IMG/VR virus record: IMGVR_UViG_3300046169_000063 | Span: 1 to 38,566 of that record | Direction: 5' to 3' (one strand) | Length of the DNA: 38,566 nt | Source: a virus | In this document: positions 1,830 through 18,190 of the stretch, in pieces | Position numbering within the stretch: position 1 is the first letter of the stretch | Layout: each line of letters begins with the position of its first letter | Translations under genes and position numbers: made by a program | Notes under the pieces: model-generated | The model's input: only the letters and a program-made list of their open reading frames with translations | Told to the model about the DNA's origin: nothing | Databases searched by the model: none

Positions 1830-2459
1830 TTATGATGTTGTTAAAATGTTTACTCCGAAGCTGTAGCTCGGATAAGTGTTGAAGGTTATTTTGTTCATCG
1901 CATTGAGTCGCTCGACTCGATCTAGTTCCAATGCCAAGGTTTCCTCGGCCATCTGTTCCTGTTGAACACTTTTTTCTAATTGCCCATCGGATTTATAAAA
2001 GTCTGCAACGCAGGCTAATAATAAATATCTCTCTAAAAATTGTGGAAGATCCGTTGTGCCTGTTCCATAATCGTTTGCCGGTACTTGATTACCCACAACA
2101 AATACAGATGTCTGTGTCGAGTTGGCGGGCAGAATTAAATAACCATTGATTAATTGATATTCGAGCAGGATTGCGGTCCTGTCCGTAAGTGGGTTTTTCG
2201 TGTATACCTGGTATACATCTAAGAGGTCGGATGCATTGTCGATCTGTACCGCTTTATCGGCCACTATAGGGCTTGTGACTGCGGCCACAGTCTTCTCGAC
2301 TACTGTCTGTACATCAGGCCATTTTGCCCGTGTCCATGCCCCTCTGATGCGATCATTCAGGCTGTTTTTGAGCGATGTTTCTTCCTGTGACAATAAAGCA
2401 TCAAGTCCAATCGCTGATTGGAATCTACTCTTAAAGTCGCTGTAGGAAATAGTCCTCAA
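1830..2459 (-). CDS. Putative head-tail connector (adaptor) protein
   Basis: 209 residues. The C-terminal third (ERYLLLACVADFYKSDGQLE followed by repeated Glu/Gln and an AEETLALELDRVE helix) resembles the helical adaptor proteins that sit below the portal in short-tailed phages, where an AAYADxLRxDGQxEKA-type helix is usual. The start overlaps the stop of the upstream gene as ATGA. Its position after capsid genes and before fibres fits a connector. The family is inferred from helical pattern and order, not from a diagnostic motif; a minor tail protein is the alternative. Confidence 0.45.
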   Translation of the reverse strand: MRTISYSDFKSRFQSAIGLDALLSQEETSLKNSLNDRIRGAWTRAKWPDVQTVVEKTVAAVTSPIVADKAVQIDNASDLLDVYQVYTKNPLTDRTAILLEYQLINGYLILPANSTQTSVFVVGNQVPANDYGTGTTDLPQFLERYLLLACVADFYKSDGQLEKSVQQEQMAEETLALELDRVERLNAMNKITFNTYPSYSFGVNILTTS

Positions 2460-2764
2460 TGTTTTACCTTAACTTCGGGGTTTGATTTCTCGAAGTCTTT
2501 GACGAATCCTTTATCGCCCCAGCATCCTGGCCGCTCCTGTTGGTGTCTTAAATAAGTCGCAGTATCTGTCACTCGCTGAAGGCGGAAGTTTCCTTTGCCC
2601 CCCTCGAGGGATTTAGCGGCTCGGCGAGCTTGCTCCTGTCTTTGAGCATAGCCACTTTTTTCCCGAACTACTGCCTGCTCGTTTGCTTTCCTCATGTAGT
2701 AAGCGATTTCCTCCTGGGAGTTTCCACTCCGCTTACCTCCTTTTACGATGATATTAAGACTCAT
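2456..2764 (-). CDS. Hypothetical basic protein downstream of the capsid gene
   Basis: 102 residues, rich in Arg, Lys, Gln and Glu, with a predicted helical middle (EEIAYYMRKANEQAVVREKS) and a C-terminal segment containing RPGCWGDKGF. It starts immediately after the T-tract of the hairpin that follows the major capsid gene, so it is probably expressed by read-through. Its stop overlaps the start of the connector-like gene. No family is recognised. The charge pattern would suit a nucleic-acid or portal-contacting minor head protein. Confidence 0.55.
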   Translation of the reverse strand: MSLNIIVKGGKRSGNSQEEIAYYMRKANEQAVVREKSGYAQRQEQARRAAKSLEGGKGNFRLQRVTDTATYLRHQQERPGCWGDKGFVKDFEKSNPEVKVKH

Positions 2765-2765
2765 A

Positions 2766-2810
2766 TTTTAAAAAGAAAAAGGGAGCCAGCCTACCCCTAA
2801 GCTGGCTCCC
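2766..2810 (-). terminator. Intrinsic terminator after the major capsid gene
   Basis: A perfect 10-bp stem (2781-2790 with 2801-2810, GGGAGCCAGC/GCTGGCTCCC) encloses a 10-base loop. Read on the minus strand, it is followed by TTTTTCTTTTT (2780-2770). It lies 50-100 bases after the capsid stop, where a partial terminator would raise capsid mRNA relative to the tail genes. Confidence 0.9.
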
Positions 2811-2862
2811 CATTTTATGAACACATGAAACAAACAATTACTACTAATTGATTGAAGATTTA

Positions 2863-4095
2863 TTAAACAATAGAACCAAGTGCGCGAGGGTTTGCTACTC
2901 TTAGAGTAAGCATTGCCTCGGAGATCGCTCTACGGCCAGCACCGTTGTCGGGTAAGTCGTTTACAGTAATTCCTTCAAGGAATTTAAGGGAAACATTATC
3001 ATCATCCGAAATCAAGTATGCACGATTTGAATTGATGACTCCTTCAGCGGTGTCTGTACCTGCGGTAAGTTTACCACCTGAAACATAAGCACCATTACCA
3101 GCGACTCCACTAAGTTGGAAAGTATCAGCAGTTTTACCAGCTACTGTGTGAGTTCCGTTTGCGGCAGTATTACCAAGAACTCCGCTAATTGTGACCTTAT
3201 CACCATTAGAGAATCCATGACCAGCAGAGGTTACTACGATTGGGTTGGCATTAGTTGCACCTGTGATCGCTTTGGAAATTCCACGACCGCCGTGAAGCAT
3301 TGGAATGATATCGATTGAACCGAAATCAGATATGAAACTAAGTACAGAACGAACCAAGGTTTTTCCGCTCACATCTTGAGTGAAGGAATAAACTGGGTTA
3401 GTCGCAATAGCGGCACGGGTGTAATCGGTGATTGCGTTCATTACCGCAGGACCAGCAAAAAGTTTGTATTCCCCTTTAGCTCCACTTGCTTCGTAAACAG
3501 ATTGAAGAAGTCCACGAAGACCTGATTCTGTCAAGTTTGCGAAGTCTACCCGAGATCCACTTACTGCACGAAATCCTTGTTTTAAGGAAGTATCGAAAGT
3601 GTTTCCAGTTGCTTCAGGATCACTCCATTTGCCCAACCCACACAACAAACTTCCAGCAGAACTAGAACCAGCGGCTTGGTCGGTTGACGAACCAATAGCA
3701 GTCTCGATTGAGCGCTTGAGTTGGATAAGGGATTTTGCCTTTGAAGCGTTGTACAATCCGTTCTGACCATTAGGTGCTACATCTACCATCTCAGCTTGGC
3801 GAGATACAGAAAAGCGGTCCTGTAGGGTTTGGATTCTGTTACCCAAACGAGCGCGAGAATTTACCAAGTCGCTCATATCACTAAGTGAATAGTCAACGCC
3901 GTCAACTTGTCCTGAGATGGATGGGTCGGCGAGGCTATCTACGAGCCATTCGTTTAAGGTCGCTTTAGGAGCGGCGGATTGTGGGAGGAAACTGAACAGA
4001 GGTGTCTCTGTCGGTTCCACAGTTTTTAGAAGTGATTCTAAGTTTTCTCTAGCGCCTTGAACGCTAGTGACATTGTAAGATGTTGCTAAGGACAT
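2863..4095 (-). CDS. Major capsid protein with an inserted FCCH-like domain
   Basis: 410 residues. The N-terminal part (NLESLLKTVEPTETPLFSFL, then NEWLVDSLADP) and the C-terminal part (NRAYLISDDDNVSLKFLEGI, then TLRVANPRALGSIV) match the layout of the SU10-type/DUF5309 HK97-fold capsid proteins, which form the procapsid shell. Residues about 275-347 (VVTSAGHGFSNGDKVTISGV through DTFQLSGVAGNGAY) form a small beta domain like the E1-FCCH-type modules found in phage structural proteins. It falls between IDIIPMLHGG and NRAYLIS, i.e. as an insertion near the C-terminal strands. The gene lies after the scaffold gene and before a terminator. The upstream region lacks a good Shine-Dalgarno and is A/T rich. 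Confidence 0.88.
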   Translation of the reverse strand: MSLATSYNVTSVQGARENLESLLKTVEPTETPLFSFLPQSAAPKATLNEWLVDSLADPSISGQVDGVDYSLSDMSDLVNSRARLGNRIQTLQDRFSVSRQAEMVDVAPNGQNGLYNASKAKSLIQLKRSIETAIGSSTDQAAGSSSAGSLLCGLGKWSDPEATGNTFDTSLKQGFRAVSGSRVDFANLTESGLRGLLQSVYEASGAKGEYKLFAGPAVMNAITDYTRAAIATNPVYSFTQDVSGKTLVRSVLSFISDFGSIDIIPMLHGGRGISKAITGATNANPIVVTSAGHGFSNGDKVTISGVLGNTAANGTHTVAGKTADTFQLSGVAGNGAYVSGGKLTAGTDTAEGVINSNRAYLISDDDNVSLKFLEGITVNDLPDNGAGRRAISEAMLTLRVANPRALGSIV

Positions 4096-4129
4096 TTTGG
4101 TATAAGATTTTGAATTTTAATAATAAAGT

Positions 4130-5155
4130 TTAGTCGCTAAGAAAGGCGGCTAGATCGGTTACCGAGAGATTGCCTTGGCGCTTGATTTGATCTTTCTGTT
4201 TCTGTTTCCGAGTATTGGCATTTTCCACCGGTGGTGAGGCGTTGCCTCCATCTGTAGGTGGTGGACTCTTGGGCTTAATCGCTTTCTTTTTAGGTGCGGT
4301 CTTTGCCTTTTGGTCCGACTTGATTGCTTCAATTCCTCGAACGAGGGTTGCGGCTATAAAGTCACCATTAGGAAGATTTTCCAGGACATGGCCGTATTGG
4401 CTTTTGAGTCCTCCGAATAATTCTTTCCGAGCTTCTGCTGATTCATCGTCCTGGTTTAACCAAGGATGCGTAGCAATTGTATCCTGTTGCCATTGAGATT
4501 TTTCCTGTAAGTAGTTCTGCCTAGCTGGAATCTTTTCGGTAAGGTACTCGTCTGCTTGGGTAAGGATATTGCGGATGTCATCATCTGAATATTCTTTTCC
4601 ATCAACTTCGACATAGTCTTTCCCGATATTCTGTAGGGCGAACTTCTTGGCGGCTTGGGCTTCCTTTTGTAACTTTTTTAAGTCTTCAAAGTTCTGAACA
4701 TTTTCAAGTTCAGGTTGACCGGTTGCCTGCTCAGTAGGTTGGCTATTGGATTTAAGTGATTCGATCTCGGCTTTAAGTGCATCTGCGTTTTCTTCAGCAG
4801 ACTTAGCTCGGGCAGTTAGTTTATTAACTTGCTTGAGCAGTTTACCTACAGCTTTTGGTGGTTCCTCTTCAGACTCCTCCTCGACCTCTTCATCCTCTTG
4901 CTCGGTTTCTTCTTCGGTATCTTCTTCCTCTTCGGAAATAGACTGTGAAAGAACATCTTCTTCTTCCGATGCTTCTGCTTGCTTGGAACTCTCGGGAGTT
5001 TCCACGCTTGCCTCATCTTCAGATGCCTTCTGATCACTTTCTACCTGGTCGACAAAGGATGCCGCCAAATCTTCCATGCTCATTGGGCTTTGCGCTTGAT
5101 TGTCTTCTGCTCCCGTGGATTCAGCCGGAGCCTCGCTAATAACTGTGTCTGCCAT
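4130..5155 (-). CDS. Capsid assembly scaffold protein
   Basis: 341 residues, directly upstream of the major capsid gene as expected for a scaffold. Residues about 25-100 are extremely acidic (runs of Glu, Asp and Ser such as EEEEDTEEETEQEDEEVEEE). They are followed by a predicted coiled coil (KLLKQVNKLTARAKSAEENA) and a basic C-terminus (KTAPKKKAIKPKSPPP, then NTRKQKQKDQIKRQG). This acidic/coiled-coil/basic-tail design is typical of scaffolds that bind capsid protein through a C-terminal basic region and leave the procapsid later. No protease domain is visible. A TGATATAAT promoter lies about 75 bases upstream. Confidence 0.82.
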   Translation of the reverse strand: MADTVISEAPAESTGAEDNQAQSPMSMEDLAASFVDQVESDQKASEDEASVETPESSKQAEASEEEDVLSQSISEEEEDTEEETEQEDEEVEEESEEEPPKAVGKLLKQVNKLTARAKSAEENADALKAEIESLKSNSQPTEQATGQPELENVQNFEDLKKLQKEAQAAKKFALQNIGKDYVEVDGKEYSDDDIRNILTQADEYLTEKIPARQNYLQEKSQWQQDTIATHPWLNQDDESAEARKELFGGLKSQYGHVLENLPNGDFIAATLVRGIEAIKSDQKAKTAPKKKAIKPKSPPPTDGGNASPPVENANTRKQKQKDQIKRQGNLSVTDLAAFLSD

Positions 5156-11031: not shown

Positions 11032-11553
11032 ATGCCTACCGAAAAGAAAAGAGTAACTATGGAGGCTGAGAACCTTCCGGCTAATCTAATGGTGGAGGAA
11101 ACCTGCCCAGCGATCTACACAGCACAGGGTCTTTACGATAAGAGACCAGGTGACTATGCTAAGATGGTTCAGATGCTTGCTGATGGTGTACCCGTTACCC
11201 GCATCAAAAAGGAACTCAAGGTCAACCATAACACAATAGCTGTGGTTCGCTCCCGTGAGAAGCAGGTGATCGAATCCTCCAAGAAAGTGATGAGAGGATT
11301 AATCGGCCATGCTTCACAGCTCGCAGTAGAGAAGATGATCGAAAAACTTGAGAACGATCAAATCCCATCAGGTGTTCTCCCTATCGCTACCGGCATCCTA
11401 ATCGATAAGCATCGCCAATACGAAGGTGAACCGACTCAAGTCATTGAGGTTAAGAAATCTTTATCCCTCGATGAAATACGAGCCGAGCTGGCGAACCTAA
11501 AAGATGAAGAGGTTATCGAAGCTGAGGTTTCGGATGTAGAGTCATCCGCCTGA
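11032..11553 (+). CDS. HTH DNA-binding protein, candidate small terminase subunit or regulator
   Basis: The only convincing plus-strand gene. From the ATG at 11032 it encodes 173 residues; an ATG at 11059 with AAGAG upstream is an alternative, and an upstream TTG at 10981 lies in the leader. Residues about 41-78 (DYAKMVQMLADGVPVTRIKK then ELKVNHNTIAVVRSREK) form a helix-turn-helix. A helical region follows (ASQLAVEKMIEKLENDQIPS) and the C-terminus is acidic. This HTH plus oligomerising helices suits a small terminase subunit, and the divergent large terminase gene is adjacent. A regulator acting on the palindrome at 10995-11014 is equally possible. Confidence 0.7.
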   Translation: MPTEKKRVTMEAENLPANLMVEETCPAIYTAQGLYDKRPGDYAKMVQMLADGVPVTRIKKELKVNHNTIAVVRSREKQVIESSKKVMRGLIGHASQLAVEKMIEKLENDQIPSGVLPIATGILIDKHRQYEGEPTQVIEVKKSLSLDEIRAELANLKDEEVIEAEVSDVESSA

Positions 11554-11585
11554 CCGCCAATCCTTAGATTGCCAGCCTACCTGTA

Positions 11586-11621
11586 TGGCTGTGTCAGATA
11601 TGCCTTGGCTGTGTCAGATAT
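11586..11621. repeat. Tandem 16-bp direct repeat, iteron-like
   Basis: TGGCTGTGTCAGATAT occurs at 11586-11601 and again at 11606-11621, a period of 20 bases or about two helix turns. A degraded half (CGATATGTCATAT) follows at about 11627. Same-face spacing suggests protein binding, as in replication iterons or packaging sites. It opens the 530-base gene-free stretch 11554-12083. Confidence 0.65.
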
Positions 11622-11673
11622 ATTTCGATATGTCATATTAATTGGCTCGATCTTTGTACCTATGCATATATTA

Positions 11674-11779
11674 ACGAGCATAGCCTTTAAAGCCCCGTAG
11701 AGTACCCTATTTAGCCTTTTAGCATATCAGCGAGTCCTCTGACTCCTATTAACCCGATCAAAGCCTCCTACGAGCATAG
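11674..11779. repeat. Dispersed direct repeat and small inverted repeat
   Basis: ACGAGCATAG occurs at 11674-11683 and 11770-11779. Between them is GAGTC-CTCT-GACTC (about 11732-11745), an inverted repeat. A TACC tandem run lies just downstream, about 11807-11822. There is no credible gene in this stretch, so these are parts of the same non-coding control region as the 16-bp repeats. Confidence 0.45.
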
Positions 11780-11855
11780 GGGTCTTACCTGTTATTCTTT
11801 TGTTCGATACCTACCTACCTACCAGCTTTTATTTTTTTTCGATCCTCCGAGCTTG

Positions 11856-12010
11856 TAGGCTAATGTATCGTAGTACCCCCTTCCCTTTACCCCGTCCGTC
11901 AGGGCAAGGGGTGTTGGGTGTGAGCGGTAGGTATAACGCAGTTATAGCTAATGGCCGACCTTGGAGGCCATAGCTTACCCCGACAGGGAAGGGGGTTCTA
12001 CTATAGCCTG
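11856..12010. other. Large multi-branched structured element (candidate ncRNA, origin or packaging site)
   Basis: A long-range closing helix pairs 11871-11886 with 11985-12000, including the perfect 12-bp ACCCCCTTCCCT/AGGGAAGGGGGT (11875-11886 with 11985-11996). Only one T:T mismatch breaks 16 positions, and G11870:C12001 extends it. Outside, TAGGCTA (11856-11862) pairs with 12004-12010. Inside are three hairpins: ACCCC/GGGGT (11889-11893 with 11908-11912), TATAAC-GCA-GTTATA (11932-11946), and ATGGCC/GGCCAT (11951-11956 with 11966-11971) extended by AGCT/AGCT across a one-base bulge. Short GGTA/TACC pairing can close the last two. It lies between convergent genes and is more G/C rich than its flanks. 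Strand of action is unknown. Confidence 0.6.
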
Positions 12011-12015
12011 TTTTG

Positions 12016-12059
12016 ACCACCACCCTCCTCCTTATATATAAAGGGAGGGGGGTGGTGGT
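12016..12059. terminator. Strong hairpin between convergent genes
   Basis: ACCACCACCC at 12016-12025 pairs with GGGTGGTGGT at 12050-12059, and the stem continues through TCCTCCTT against AAGGGAGG with a wobble or bulge, around a TATATA loop. On the plus strand it is followed by TTTT. On the minus strand it lies just after the helicase stop codon at 12084. It probably ends transcription from both sides, mainly the early minus-strand operon. Confidence 0.75.
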
Positions 12060-12083
12060 TTTAGAGAGTAATCGACCCATATT

Positions 12084-13232
12084 CTACTCGGTATAAGAAT
12101 AGATGTTTCCTACACCATTTTCGGTCTTATGTACACTAATATGATTCTTGGAAATTAGTAGTATTTTATCCATTTTTTTATCTCCAATCGACTCCCCTGT
12201 CTTATCCTGAAGTAGTTTTCTGAGGTTATTTAAGCCATGAATAGAGTTAGGTTTGAGCAATTCGATAAGAGCATTAGATAACTTTTCATTGACTCGTTGT
12301 ATCTCTTTTGACTGTCCAGGCTTGCGTAATTTGGGTTCAAGTTCGGGCTTATGGACGAAGTTTGGCCACTCAAATTCGACTACCTTTGCGGGTGGAGACG
12401 AGAAGTCTCTGACAGTTGCCTCGAGGACTAGGTGGTCTTCTTCTTCGTGGGGTGTTAGGGTGAGAATAGCATCGGGGTCACGGGCAAATACGCCTGACCC
12501 GCTTGCCCTGTCGATGTGGTCTGTGTCAGACTTATTACCTTTTGAGAAGTGGTGGGCATAGACGAATGAACAGTCGAGTCGTTCGGAGAATTGCTCCATG
12601 CGGTTGACAACTTCGGAGATAGCACCGGCATCGTTCTCATCTGCACCTGTTGCCAGTTTATAGAAGGGATCGACTATTACCATGTCAGGTTTGAAATCGG
12701 GGAGATCTTCAATGTGGTGTACGAGGTCCTCGAGGGAACGGGCTTGGCCTCGGAGTCCACAGTAGAGAAATCGGGGGTTCTGTTTATAGATACCTGGGTT
12801 GGCGGCTATGATGTGGGTTATGCGTTGGGCGGCCATGCGGGGCTTTAGCTCGAAGTCGAGGTATATGACATTGCCTTGGGTAGTTTCATGGCCCATCCAG
12901 GGCTTTCCATTGGATACTGCTAGGCCGAGGTGAAGGAGGGATAGGGTTTTACCAGCCTTGGAGGACCCTGAGATGATCATCTTTGATCCTTTATAGAGAA
13001 CTCCTGAAATGATTTGCGGGGGCATCTTAGTATTCGTTTCGATGCTTACCATATCGGAGAGGGTAAGGAACTTGGGGGCGGGTAGCGGGTCATCGATTGC
13101 CAGCGAGTAGGATTGGGGTGCATCGGATGACCACTCGGGATAGTGTGGCTGTCCTTGGGATTGGAAGTAGATGTCTAATTCATCTGCTTTGGCTAAGGTT
13201 TCGGGTTTTAGGTAGTCTTCTCTGTATGCCAT
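12084..13232 (-). CDS. RepA/DnaB-type replicative helicase (AAA_25-like ATPase)
   Basis: 382 residues with a RecA-like core: Walker A ISGSSKAGKT (K95), Walker B MVIVD (184-188), and a sensor strand FVYAHHFSKG (HH at 227-228), as in RSF1010 RepA-type hexameric helicases. The usual basic finger follows (SGSGVFARDPDAILTLTPHE). A helical C-terminal region (about 310-382) may bind DNA or primase. It would unwind DNA 5' to 3' at the phage fork. It is the last gene of the replication operon, 7 bases after a small gene and a little downstream of the primase-like gene, so the two probably work together. Confidence 0.85.
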   Translation of the reverse strand: MAYREDYLKPETLAKADELDIYFQSQGQPHYPEWSSDAPQSYSLAIDDPLPAPKFLTLSDMVSIETNTKMPPQIISGVLYKGSKMIISGSSKAGKTLSLLHLGLAVSNGKPWMGHETTQGNVIYLDFELKPRMAAQRITHIIAANPGIYKQNPRFLYCGLRGQARSLEDLVHHIEDLPDFKPDMVIVDPFYKLATGADENDAGAISEVVNRMEQFSERLDCSFVYAHHFSKGNKSDTDHIDRASGSGVFARDPDAILTLTPHEEEDHLVLEATVRDFSSPPAKVVEFEWPNFVHKPELEPKLRKPGQSKEIQRVNEKLSNALIELLKPNSIHGLNNLRKLLQDKTGESIGDKKMDKILLISKNHISVHKTENGVGNIYSYTE

Positions 13233-13239
13233 GTGTTAT

Positions 13240-13419
13240 TTATTCCTTTGTGAGTTTAATGATTATTGTTGGTTTATGATTATCATCGTCACGGATGATA
13301 TAAATTATTGATCCTTCACGCATCGAACCGGCTAACTCGAATGCCTTCTCCATGTGGAGGCCCAGCTTGATAAACCTTCGGGCTATGGTCTTTTGTAGCT
13401 GGAGGCTTATTCCTTCCAA
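13240..13419 (-). CDS. Small hypothetical protein between primase and helicase genes
   Basis: A TTG at 13419 is preceded at ideal spacing (7 bases) by AGGAGG, giving 59 residues and only 13 bases overlap with the upstream gene. The frame could extend upstream to an ATG at 13488, but that would overlap 82 bases and lacks a ribosome site. The product starts with EGISLQLQKTIARRFIKLGL after the initiator, continues with MEKAFELAG and ends in beta-like segments SIIYIIRDDD and PTIIIKLTKE. No family is recognised; a helicase loader or primase partner is possible from position. Confidence 0.55.
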   Translation of the reverse strand: MEGISLQLQKTIARRFIKLGLHMEKAFELAGSMREGSIIYIIRDDDNHKPTIIIKLTKE

Positions 13420-14255
13420 AAGATTACCTCCTGCTTGGCGGGATAAGGTTCGCCTTCCTTTCTGCGGGTTCCCCAGGGTAGTCGGCATAGTTGATTCATT
13501 AGTTTGAATCGTGGATCTCCACCGAGCTTTTGTGAGAGTTCGAGAAAGTCTTTCTTATATCCCTCGATCCAATGAAACCATGCGTGTAGAGATTTCCCAC
13601 CTGAGTTTACGATCATCTTGAGGGGGGCAATCTGTTCGAGGCGTTGGATGAGGCCAAGTTGTTGCTCGAATGACAGGGATGGATCGTCTGTTTCGTGGAT
13701 GAAATACTTACGCCCTAATACCTCTGCCTCGGATCGAGTGGCTTGCTCGGGAAATGTGTTATAGGTGATGAACTGGAAGTTTGACAGGTCGGGCATGGCG
13801 ATTGCCTGCTTGATCGTCATGGGTGCAGATCGCTCGGCAACCACTCGCTGTACAAAGATTGATTCGTCAGGATCGAAGAGTCCCTGTAGCGCATCCTCGG
13901 CATTCCTCGGAATGGGGTCGGATCGGAGGGTAAACTTTTCGAATAGACCGGCTTGGCCTAAGTTATTTTCTTTAAGGGATGGATCGGGAGGAGCTACCTT
14001 TATGGGGTTTTTCGGCAGGTTTGGGTTATCATGTCGATGATATGCCCCTTTTATAGCATTCCTAATTTCCGATGGTTGATGTTGCCTATGGGAAACCTTA
14101 TCGAGTAGAGCGATCAACGCCCGTTCTGCATGGTTTGGGTCTTTGGTCCACCTGGTAATGACTAAGGATAATCGAAGTAGCACATCGTGATGGGACAGTA
14201 GTCCGCTTGGCAGGTTTTCTAAGCACCTGCGTATATCTCCTTTCAGGGTAGCCAT
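13407..14255 (-). CDS. Primase-like protein (archaeo-eukaryotic primase type)
   Basis: 282 residues. The C-terminal half has the signature of AEP/RepB-type primases: a candidate metal-binding FIHETD (E188, D190), then KMIVNSGGKSLHAWFHW (the SGGKSxHxW motif at 218-226), then QLCRLPWGTRR (255-265). The N-terminal region (about 1-75) is helical and His rich and resembles a primase or helicase-binding domain. It would make primers for the family A polymerase at the fork opened by the helicase two genes later. The start overlaps the preceding gene in TAATG. DnaG-type TOPRIM or zinc motifs are absent. Confidence 0.7.
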   Translation of the reverse strand: MATLKGDIRRCLENLPSGLLSHHDVLLRLSLVITRWTKDPNHAERALIALLDKVSHRQHQPSEIRNAIKGAYHRHDNPNLPKNPIKVAPPDPSLKENNLGQAGLFEKFTLRSDPIPRNAEDALQGLFDPDESIFVQRVVAERSAPMTIKQAIAMPDLSNFQFITYNTFPEQATRSEAEVLGRKYFIHETDDPSLSFEQQLGLIQRLEQIAPLKMIVNSGGKSLHAWFHWIEGYKKDFLELSQKLGGDPRFKLMNQLCRLPWGTRRKEGEPYPAKQEVIFWKE

Positions 14256-15926: not shown

Positions 15927-17510
15927 TCAGTAGTGTGTTTTGATTTCCCCCTCGGCGGCCAAAGGTAGTCCAGGGTAGCTAAGAGGTTCCTCGGTGAGTA
16001 GTTGAGTAAGTAAATCTAGTGCCGCCTGTCCTTCATTCTCTGCGACCTCCAAAGTCACAGAGTCATGTACATGGAGACAGATCGGTAGCCCGGCGGCCTC
16101 GATGCGGATAAGCGCATCTGCAAAGATTGATCGGGCAGTTGCCTGTACGAGGTTTTGAAAGAGCCTAGCCCCATATATCTTGACCGGTGCATACCCTCGG
16201 GTGGTCGAGGCAAAGAGGTTTCCATATTCCTCGTATGCATTGAAGTATCGAACAGGGACTCCACAGCGTGTGGTGAATGTAATACATTCGGGAGTCTCCT
16301 TCATCCACTCTCTGAACTGGTCCTCTATTTTCGACCAAGCTAGATGTACATCGGGGTTCTGCGCTCGATATAATAGTACCTGTTTCTTGGCTTCTGCCTC
16401 GGTCATAGTAACCCCGAATGATTTTGCCACTTCAAGAAATGTATTAGCTCCACATCCATAGCCTAATCCGAGGAGTCTAGCCTTGCATAGCTTCCTCATC
16501 TCGGGGGCAAGCTCGGCCATAGGTTCATCCTCGTTGTACAGCTTGGATGCTCGACCATGTGCCTCGTATATATCGATCCCTCCACGCACTAGGCCAAGAA
16601 AGTTTTGATCACCCACCAGGTACGCAATTACGCGCGGTTCGATCTGTGAGAGGTCAGCAGATACAATTACCCTACCCTGGGGAGCCTGTAAGCATTTACG
16701 GGCAGAAGTATCTGCCACAGCATCGTTAGGGATGGCTTGGAAATTTATTACTCCTCCACCGCTCCACCGCTTGGTATGTGGAGCGCCACAATATTTTAAA
16801 CGAGTGGGTACTCGGCGGTCCGAGCGTTGGCCCATGATTAATTTCTCATAGGTTTGTAGGGCAAGGTTAGCCTGTCTCCACTCAGTCGTTTTACGATCCG
16901 TATCTTCCAGTATCTTTTCCACCTTATCGATGAACTGCTGGCAGAGCGGGCCATTGATCGCCAAACCTCTGTTTGCGACTCTACGGGTTAACGATGAGAG
17001 CAATCTTTCCTTCTCAGGAAATCCGACATCTAACTCCTGGTAGACTCGTAAACAATTCCGACTGTCCTCTAGTGCATAATTTATAAATGATGGATTTGCT
17101 TGTATTTCCTGTGCAGATAATCCAGCCATTGCATCTCGCTCGTCCTTGGATATTTCCTCGTCAAATAATTCCTTAATCGCTCCGGCTAATGAGCGGGGTA
17201 ATTGGTGGTACGATGCCATGTCTGCGGTACATATCCAATCGCTCGGCATGAACTCGGGCATCTGTCCTCTGAAGATTGCCGCCCTTGCGCATACGCTATC
17301 AAACTCGGCATTATGGGAGATTAAGGTATGGCCGTTTAGGCGCTCAACCGGCAACCTCTGTGGCTCCCCTACCCATTCAAATCCATCCTCTGCTACGATT
17401 GAAACGAGGGTTACTCGGAAGTCAGGATTCTTTACATATCGGTCGAGGCCAATCTTTGCGACTGAGTAATTCTTACTCCACACAGTCTCTAGGTCAAAGG
17501 CTACAATCAT
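15927..17510 (-). CDS. polA: Family A DNA polymerase with 3'-5' exonuclease
   Basis: 527 residues, compact for the family. Exonuclease motifs: AFDLET (D6, E8), SHNAEFD (N67, D71) and NYALEDSRN (Y145, D149). Polymerase motif A is VSADLSQIEPR (D286, E291), motif B RKLCKARLLGLGYG (R339, K343, Y351) and motif C LHVHDSV (H482, D483). Residue 347, aligned to E. coli Phe762, is Leu; in viral family A polymerases this position is Phe, Tyr or Leu and affects discrimination against dideoxynucleotides. There is no 5'-3' exonuclease domain. The start overlaps the Mom-like gene stop as ATGA. It is the replicative polymerase of this phage. Confidence 0.93.
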   Translation of the reverse strand: MIVAFDLETVWSKNYSVAKIGLDRYVKNPDFRVTLVSIVAEDGFEWVGEPQRLPVERLNGHTLISHNAEFDSVCARAAIFRGQMPEFMPSDWICTADMASYHQLPRSLAGAIKELFDEEISKDERDAMAGLSAQEIQANPSFINYALEDSRNCLRVYQELDVGFPEKERLLSSLTRRVANRGLAINGPLCQQFIDKVEKILEDTDRKTTEWRQANLALQTYEKLIMGQRSDRRVPTRLKYCGAPHTKRWSGGGVINFQAIPNDAVADTSARKCLQAPQGRVIVSADLSQIEPRVIAYLVGDQNFLGLVRGGIDIYEAHGRASKLYNEDEPMAELAPEMRKLCKARLLGLGYGCGANTFLEVAKSFGVTMTEAEAKKQVLLYRAQNPDVHLAWSKIEDQFREWMKETPECITFTTRCGVPVRYFNAYEEYGNLFASTTRGYAPVKIYGARLFQNLVQATARSIFADALIRIEAAGLPICLHVHDSVTLEVAENEGQAALDLLTQLLTEEPLSYPGLPLAAEGEIKTHY

Positions 17511-18190
17511 ACCACTTCCCTTTCATTTGAAGATTTAGGATATGTAGAAATTTTATAATTTAATTCATTTCTTAGCTTGGCCTTTTCTTGTTTATCAGCG
17601 TGGATATAAACATACCTGTGCTTGGCGCTTCTAAATACTCGATTTGTTCGATCTTTTAAGCTATGGCGAGAGTGCTTATTATTTGCACTAGCCATGTCAG
17701 TTCTTGCTTTTGTTGTTCCTGTAAAAAGGAAATTTGTGGCTTGATATACTAGGCCAATATGACCTTGTGCGGTATCTGCGTAACTAACTATTATTTTTGG
17801 CTTAGGAAGCATCCTAATTGATTTGCTCACCAAAAAACTAGCTTCGTTTTTTCTGTTAAATTTTAATACTAACCGATTTAACTCTATGACCTTATTTCGG
17901 TTACTTTTACCAGCGATACCTACACATAAATTAGGGCTTGCAGGACTACCATATGTGCAAACTCCAATTAGTTTATGATTTCTATAAAGCCCATATACAA
18001 AACTTAAAGAAGGCTTTCGCTTTGCGTAATGAATTTCATAAATATATGGGTAAGCTAGTTTTTTATTACTTAACTCTCTAACAAAATAATTTTTAAATGA
18101 TTGGTGCGTAGAGGTCGGACTTGCACCGCCACCATCCTCTTGGAATAGAGGGAGTTCTGCTGTTAAACTATCTACGCTAAAATTCTTCAT
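17507..18190 (-). CDS. Mom-like DNA modification enzyme
   Basis: 227 residues. The pattern HYAKRKPSLSFVYGLYRNHK, GVCTYGSPASP, VIELNRLVL (ELNRL 103-107), SFLVSKSIRMLPKPKIIVSY (then ADT) and GHIGLVYQATNFLFTG (143-158) is that of the Mom-related, GNAT-fold family in phages. Phage Mu Mom converts adenine in DNA to a carbamoylmethyl form and so blocks restriction. The ELNRL and SYADTxxGHxGxVYQATNF motifs fit the family well. It is coupled to the polymerase gene by ATGA and to the small gene upstream likewise. The exact product on DNA is unknown. Confidence 0.8.
   Translation of the reverse strand: MKNFSVDSLTAELPLFQEDGGGASPTSTHQSFKNYFVRELSNKKLAYPYIYEIHYAKRKPSLSFVYGLYRNHKLIGVCTYGSPASPNLCVGIAGKSNRNKVIELNRLVLKFNRKNEASFLVSKSIRMLPKPKIIVSYADTAQGHIGLVYQATNFLFTGTTKARTDMASANNKHSRHSLKDRTNRVFRSAKHRYVYIHADKQEKAKLRNELNYKISTYPKSSNEREVV

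Follow-up and report, generated by a model that had tools for sequence, protein, structure and literature searches.

What is the role of a multi-branched structured element in a gene-free region of a phage genome that belongs to no recognised family of structured sequences? The window, the whole stretch of DNA analysed here, is the 38,566-base IMG/VR record IMGVR_UViG_3300046169_000063 from a tailed phage, an uncultured bacterial virus. It encodes a terminase large subunit, major head and tail proteins, a family-A DNA polymerase, an exonuclease, a Holliday junction resolvase, and a Mom-like DNA modification protein (17507–18190), and nearly all of its genes are carried by the minus strand. No tRNA or tmRNA was found. 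The annotated phage and plasmid collections contained no DNA-level relatives of the window and the phage and plasmid collections no nucleotide relatives of the element, and nothing about the element was found in open-access papers; many relatives of the window are present in IMG/VR. A matching terminase is present in a single phage record, that of phage C75C1, which was rejected as a source of a related element because its helicase is followed by no more than a terminator-like hairpin (z −1.3).

The element occupies positions 11856–12010 (long form, 155 nt, with the plus strand as the better-folding strand) and is defined by its stability, covariation, and a covariance model. It is located between convergent genes, as the first-pass annotation had described: a helix-turn-helix (HTH) protein, a candidate small terminase or initiator, is encoded at 11032–11553 on the plus strand, and a RepA-type replicative helicase (AAA_25) at 12084–13232 on the minus strand. 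The element begins 74 nt beyond the helicase stop codon. The only open reading frame across it, 11829–12080 on the minus strand, has its frame broken in most of the relatives checked; a coding role was rejected, and the element overlaps no credible gene.

The fold proposed from the sequence, a nested closing helix of 7 bp plus 16 of 17 positions enclosing three hairpins, was reproduced. The 5′ arm of helix P1 (11856–11862, 7 bp) pairs with 12004–12010, and that of helix P2 (11870–11886) with 11985–12001, with 16 of its 17 positions paired. Hairpin A (11889–11912) has the loop c-GTCA-g, which is c-GACA-g or c-GGCA-g in relatives. An internal helix, supported by covariation, is formed by 11913–11925 and 11973–11984, and bears two of the three inner hairpins, so that the element contains two nested junctions. 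Hairpin B (11928–11950) has the sequence TATAAC-GCA-GTTATA, replaced by TATTGC-GAA-GCAATA with compensatory changes in other relatives. In L037 and L083 the loop reads TTC instead of GAA, and the whole hairpin appears to be inverted, an outcome to be expected of template switching within a palindrome. Hairpin C (11951–11971) has the loop GACCTTGGA, and its junction sequence GCTAATGG..CCATAGC is common to the distant relatives L137 and L138. A second hairpin, hp2 (12016–12059, plus strand), is positioned between the element and the helicase stop codon and probably belongs to the same region as the element.

The plus strand of the element has a predicted folding energy of −81.7 kcal/mol, compared to −54.3 ± 4.5 for dinucleotide shuffles (z −6.15), and none of 200 shuffles reached its stability. 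With DNA parameters, the z-score of the plus strand is −6.16. The minus strand folds less well, with z-scores of −5.13 and −4.29 for RNA and DNA parameters, respectively. When 155-nt windows were scanned along the entire contig, the eight with the greatest stability all fell at the element, and the best of them (−77.5, at 11851 on the plus strand) compares with a contig mean of −34.9 and a standard deviation of 7.8. The folding against shuffled controls that the first-pass annotation had called for thus places the element far above random expectation.

Relatives were gathered through the adjoining helicase gene and not through the element, which makes the sample unbiased towards the element. 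Sequence of at least 250 nt beside the helicase was available for 63 distinct relatives, and every one of them has a homologous element in the slot that separates the helicase stop codon from the plus-strand gene; 61 of these elements were identified by a pattern, and those of L124 and L151, for which the pattern was too strict, by eye. The position of the slot is fixed even where the letters or the overall size of the element change completely. At least four forms can be distinguished, including the long form of the window, distant long forms (L137 and L138; L139, L141, L143–L150, and L155; L124, L144, and L152), and short hairpins of about 58 nt. All forms contain a P1 helix of the type GGCT..AGCC and a long P2. 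In some relatives, the 58-nt hairpin replaces the 155-nt form on the same P1/P2 base, which is the only part that long and short forms have in common. Even L131, the helicase of which is only 33% identical to that of the window, has a P1/P2-type hairpin and a hairpin with a TATATA loop in the slot. The covariance model R1, built from 17 long forms, matched L137 and L138 with E-values of about 1e-11 and L141 with an E-value of 8e-6, and none of the three was in its training set. A match to L156 was discarded, as its E-value of 0.31 is at chance level. L029 and L034 have a long element together with a second hairpin of the kind that characterises short-form relatives; the pieces have therefore been shuffled by recombination. 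Among short-form relatives (L008, L045, and L043), the 3′ strand of hp2 can alternatively pair upstream of P1, in L008 through GTAGTAATCCCC with GGGGATTACTAC, and two mutually exclusive folds are possible.

The first-pass annotation had named loss of the stems without compensating changes in relatives as the outcome that would speak against the element. The stems are instead kept through compensating changes, and pairs altered on both sides occur in all three of the alignments, one per form: the long-form alignment of 17 sequences has 9 such pairs and 28 such cells, the short-form alignment 5 and 40, and the distant-form alignment 13 and 23. In each alignment, the covariation score exceeds those of all 500 shuffles and of every slid control. 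Helix P1 varies as CTA/TAG, CTG/CAG, and CTT/AAG among relatives. In every long-form sequence, the plus strand folds better than the minus strand. Mismatches in the alignment comprise 73 G-T cells and no A-C cells, a bias that is partly built in because the structure was derived from the plus strand. A strand-neutral helix finder gave G-T to A-C ratios of 25:15, 4:4, 22:8, and 66:19 in distinct contexts, which are a hint only since many of its helices are wrong. These results indicate that one of the strands is important in its single-stranded form; fold statistics and sequence leave single-stranded DNA and RNA unseparated.

The element could accordingly be a structured non-coding RNA of the plus strand that ends at hp2, is either driven by a separate promoter or forms the 3′-terminal part of the 11032–11553 transcript, and acts in trans or stabilises the transcript. 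The strong preference of the fold for the plus strand, the deep covariation with conserved wobble pairs, the U-rich 3′ flank of many members, and the conservation of the junction sequence GCGGTAGG/GCTAATGG/CCATAGC across distant relatives speak for such an RNA. The promoter scan, however, recognised none beside the element, the 5′ flanks differ between groups, and several relatives (the L137 and L146 groups) have no U run. The element exceeds the gathering threshold of no Rfam family and gives chance matches only, in agreement with the earlier statement that no known family is recognised. An RNA of this kind would also leave the fixed link to the helicase-primase pair unexplained, and we regard it as possible, with the balance of probability against it. 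Somewhat more doubtful is the idea that the element represents a structured phage RNA of a new class, whose 155-nt and 58-nt forms share a P1/P2 base and can replace one another, and which may act in replication, for example as a primer or loader RNA, in phages with RepA and an archaeo-eukaryotic primase.

The genes next to the element suggest a function in replication. The only sequence match of the helicase in the PDB is RSF1010 RepA (E 4e-4), and its comparison with IncQ1 RepA by hhalign gave an E-value of 2.7e-7 over 178 columns. Judged by these matches, the protein is a relative of RSF1010 RepA, a RepA-family hexameric helicase. Just upstream of the helicase gene is a conserved gene (13407–14255, minus strand), the product of which has no family match by sequence and gave nothing significant in a sequence comparison with IncQ1 RepB. 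It contains the motif SGGKSLHAW; therefore, an archaeo-eukaryotic primase was suspected and a structure model was made (pLDDT 57). The top Foldseek match of the model is RepB′ (PDB: 3h20; probability 0.99, E 0.017). A second structural alignment again ranked RepB′ first (Z 7.2), and nearly all of its rows with Z of at least 5 are from the RepB′ superfamily. The model thus indicates that the protein is, at the fold level only, a RepB′-like archaeo-eukaryotic primase. In the distant phage contig L131, an archaeo-eukaryotic primase and a RepA-type helicase are fused in one 689-aa frame (2068–4137), and the fusion and the separate primase have the same SGGKS[IL]HA motif.

The side of the element facing away from the helicase is bordered by a gene-free spacer of about 300 nt (11554–11855, plus strand), which contains candidate iterons in the form of oriented CGA[GT] motifs without exact tandem copies, and ends in an AT tract. 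In the window, the spacer has nine of these motifs on the plus strand and one on the minus strand, the highest plus-strand excess of the contig. In the spacers of 55 relatives, 361 are on the plus strand and 67 on the minus strand, with spacing peaks at 16–18, 24, and 34–36; the motif is common throughout the window genome, and the relatives are not independent. The A+T tract TTTTATTTTTTTT (11827–11839, plus strand) is, by its sequence, a candidate unwinding element. Positions 11575–11621 contain TGGCTGTGTCAG direct repeats, the copy number of which ranges from about 2 to 4 among the close relatives L066, L078, and L080. Between the HTH gene and the spacer, L012, L068, L109, and L118 have a small plus-strand gene, the product of which starts with MTDKK(E/Q)WGGKRPNQTGRP and is perhaps a ribbon-helix-helix protein.

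The C-terminal half of the HTH protein (IPxGVLPIATGILIDKHRQYEGEPTQ) is near-invariant, and the half containing the HTH varies between relatives. Its structure model (pLDDT 52) was too poor for a structure search. In relatives, the protein has weak small-terminase matches, from which we would hazard the guess that the 11032–11553 product is a small terminase. The element could then be a packaging initiation site recognised by this protein, in keeping with a distance of about 1.2 kb to the gene of the terminase large subunit. Packaging sites, however, act as double-stranded DNA, for which a one-strand fold is unexpected, and the contig breakpoints differ among near-full-length relatives and so indicate no fixed end; we consider a packaging site very improbable. 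A phi29-type pRNA is ruled out by the family-A polymerase and the phrog_2 terminase of the phage. The element resembles phage structured RNAs such as the staphylococcal cabRNA, which comes from the terminase genes (PMC10686824), in being a structured sequence near such genes; no relation in sequence was seen.

Hairpin hp2 was described in the first-pass annotation as a separate terminator hairpin. A separate hairpin is indeed present, and its status as a terminator was not established: the terminator scan gave no intrinsic terminator, and the T run after hp2 is short and missing in some relatives. The stem sequence of hp2 is replaced among relatives while its pairing is kept, and an AT-rich loop of the TATATA type recurs. 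The palindrome-like sequence of hp2 led us to consider a protelomerase target, which was rejected because relatives lack symmetry at the centre of the hairpin and none of the proteins scanned was seen to be a protelomerase. The whole region may be read as an elaborate transcription terminator, or an insulator against convergent transcription, between the plus-strand gene and the early minus-strand operon. Its position between convergent genes fits such a role, as do hp2 and the short forms, which in many members are hairpins followed by TTTT. Nevertheless, termination does not call for conserved loops on a multi-branched fold, some relatives lack the T runs, and the minus direction has no A run, which makes a terminator or insulator unlikely.

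The arrangement of the locus is similar to that of the Sulfolobus plasmid pRN1, which for its replication requires a stem-loop, about 100 nt in size, that follows the primase-helicase gene on its downstream side; a small, dispensable, terminator-like hairpin is located between the gene and the stem-loop (PMC4234260). The structure of stem-loops of the pRN1 type is conserved while their sequence varies, and a similar stem-loop behind the replication gene of phage BIP-1 has been proposed to be an origin (PMC4234260). In the window, likewise, a large stem-loop is within about 100 nt (74 nt) 3′ of the helicase gene, the small hairpin hp2 is between the stop codon and the stem-loop, and the structure of the element is kept as its sequence changes. 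The differences are that pRN1 combines an archaeo-eukaryotic primase and an SF3 helicase in one chain, whereas the two proteins are separate here and the helicase is RepA-like, as it still is in the fused protein of L131; that pRN1 has no iterons, whereas the spacer here bears repeat motifs; and that the long form of the element is multi-branched. Replication of RSF1010 involves iterons, opening of the DNA by RepA, and priming by RepB′ at exposed stem-loops (PMC4234260, PMC4434180). The locus shares with the RSF1010 (IncQ) oriV a RepA-type helicase, a RepB′-like primase (at the fold level), and repeats with hairpins. The RSF1010 ssiA measures 40 nt, its hairpin accounts for 21 nt, and its 3′ tail contains a GTG; there is one ssi per strand. 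The element, in contrast, is 58–155 nt long, and the GTG start motif is absent 3′ of it on the plus strand before hp2. By hairpin size and the GTG tail, the element is outside the RSF1010 ssi family, and by its helicase family it is not strictly of the pRN1 type. By analogy, it most likely works like the pRN1 and RSF1010 ssi origins.

Among the non-coding RNA, replication origin, and packaging signal offered by the first-pass annotation, the neighbouring genes and the pRN1 precedent thus support the origin best; the RNA follows, and the packaging signal has little in its favour. The RepA-type helicase, the RepB′-like primase, the oriented CGA[GT] motifs, the AT tract, and the pRN1-like order of helicase stop codon, hp2, and large element are the reasons for favouring a stem-loop origin. 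We infer, by analogy, that the element is the structured core of such an origin, and put the chances at about even. The detrended GC skew at four-fold sites has its minimum at the slot in the window and five relatives, which supports an origin weakly; the minimum is absent from the slot in two of eight genomes (G004 and G007), and its amplitude is not significant singly in the six genomes that have it (permutation p 0.08–0.31). Tetraloops of the c-GNNA-g type belong to a class that is very stable in DNA. Several loops of the element fit the DNA-stable motifs c-GNNA-g and c-GNA-g (GNA loops are discussed in PMC6479982), again weak support for an origin; hairpin C and some of the short forms do not follow these motifs. 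Against an origin, the conserved wobble-type G-T pairs suit RNA at least equally, and the models of both proteins are of low confidence (pLDDT 52 and 57).

Replication from such an origin would involve the binding of a phage protein, the HTH protein or a different one, to the oriented repeats of the spacer; this protein would open the adjoining AT tract, and the RepA-type helicase would enter. The plus strand, once single-stranded, would fold into the multi-branched element with hp2. The folded strand would then serve as an assembly or priming site that positions the helicase and the RepB′-like primase for the first primer, which the family-A DNA polymerase of the phage would extend. The data establish that the structure is conserved, that its position is fixed, and to which families the neighbouring proteins belong; we infer the action of the element as DNA, the identity of the protein that binds it, and the start of replication at this site.

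If the element is an origin, a pair of an IncQ-like RepA helicase and a RepB′-type primase would run the genomes of widespread uncultured aquatic (marine) phages. The inner domain of their stem-loop origin would exist in two exchangeable versions, one a simple hairpin and the other multi-branched. How a primase or helicase recognises a shape and not a sequence could then be tested directly by exchanging the natural forms, and the covariance model would enable origins to be located in phage contigs without known hosts.
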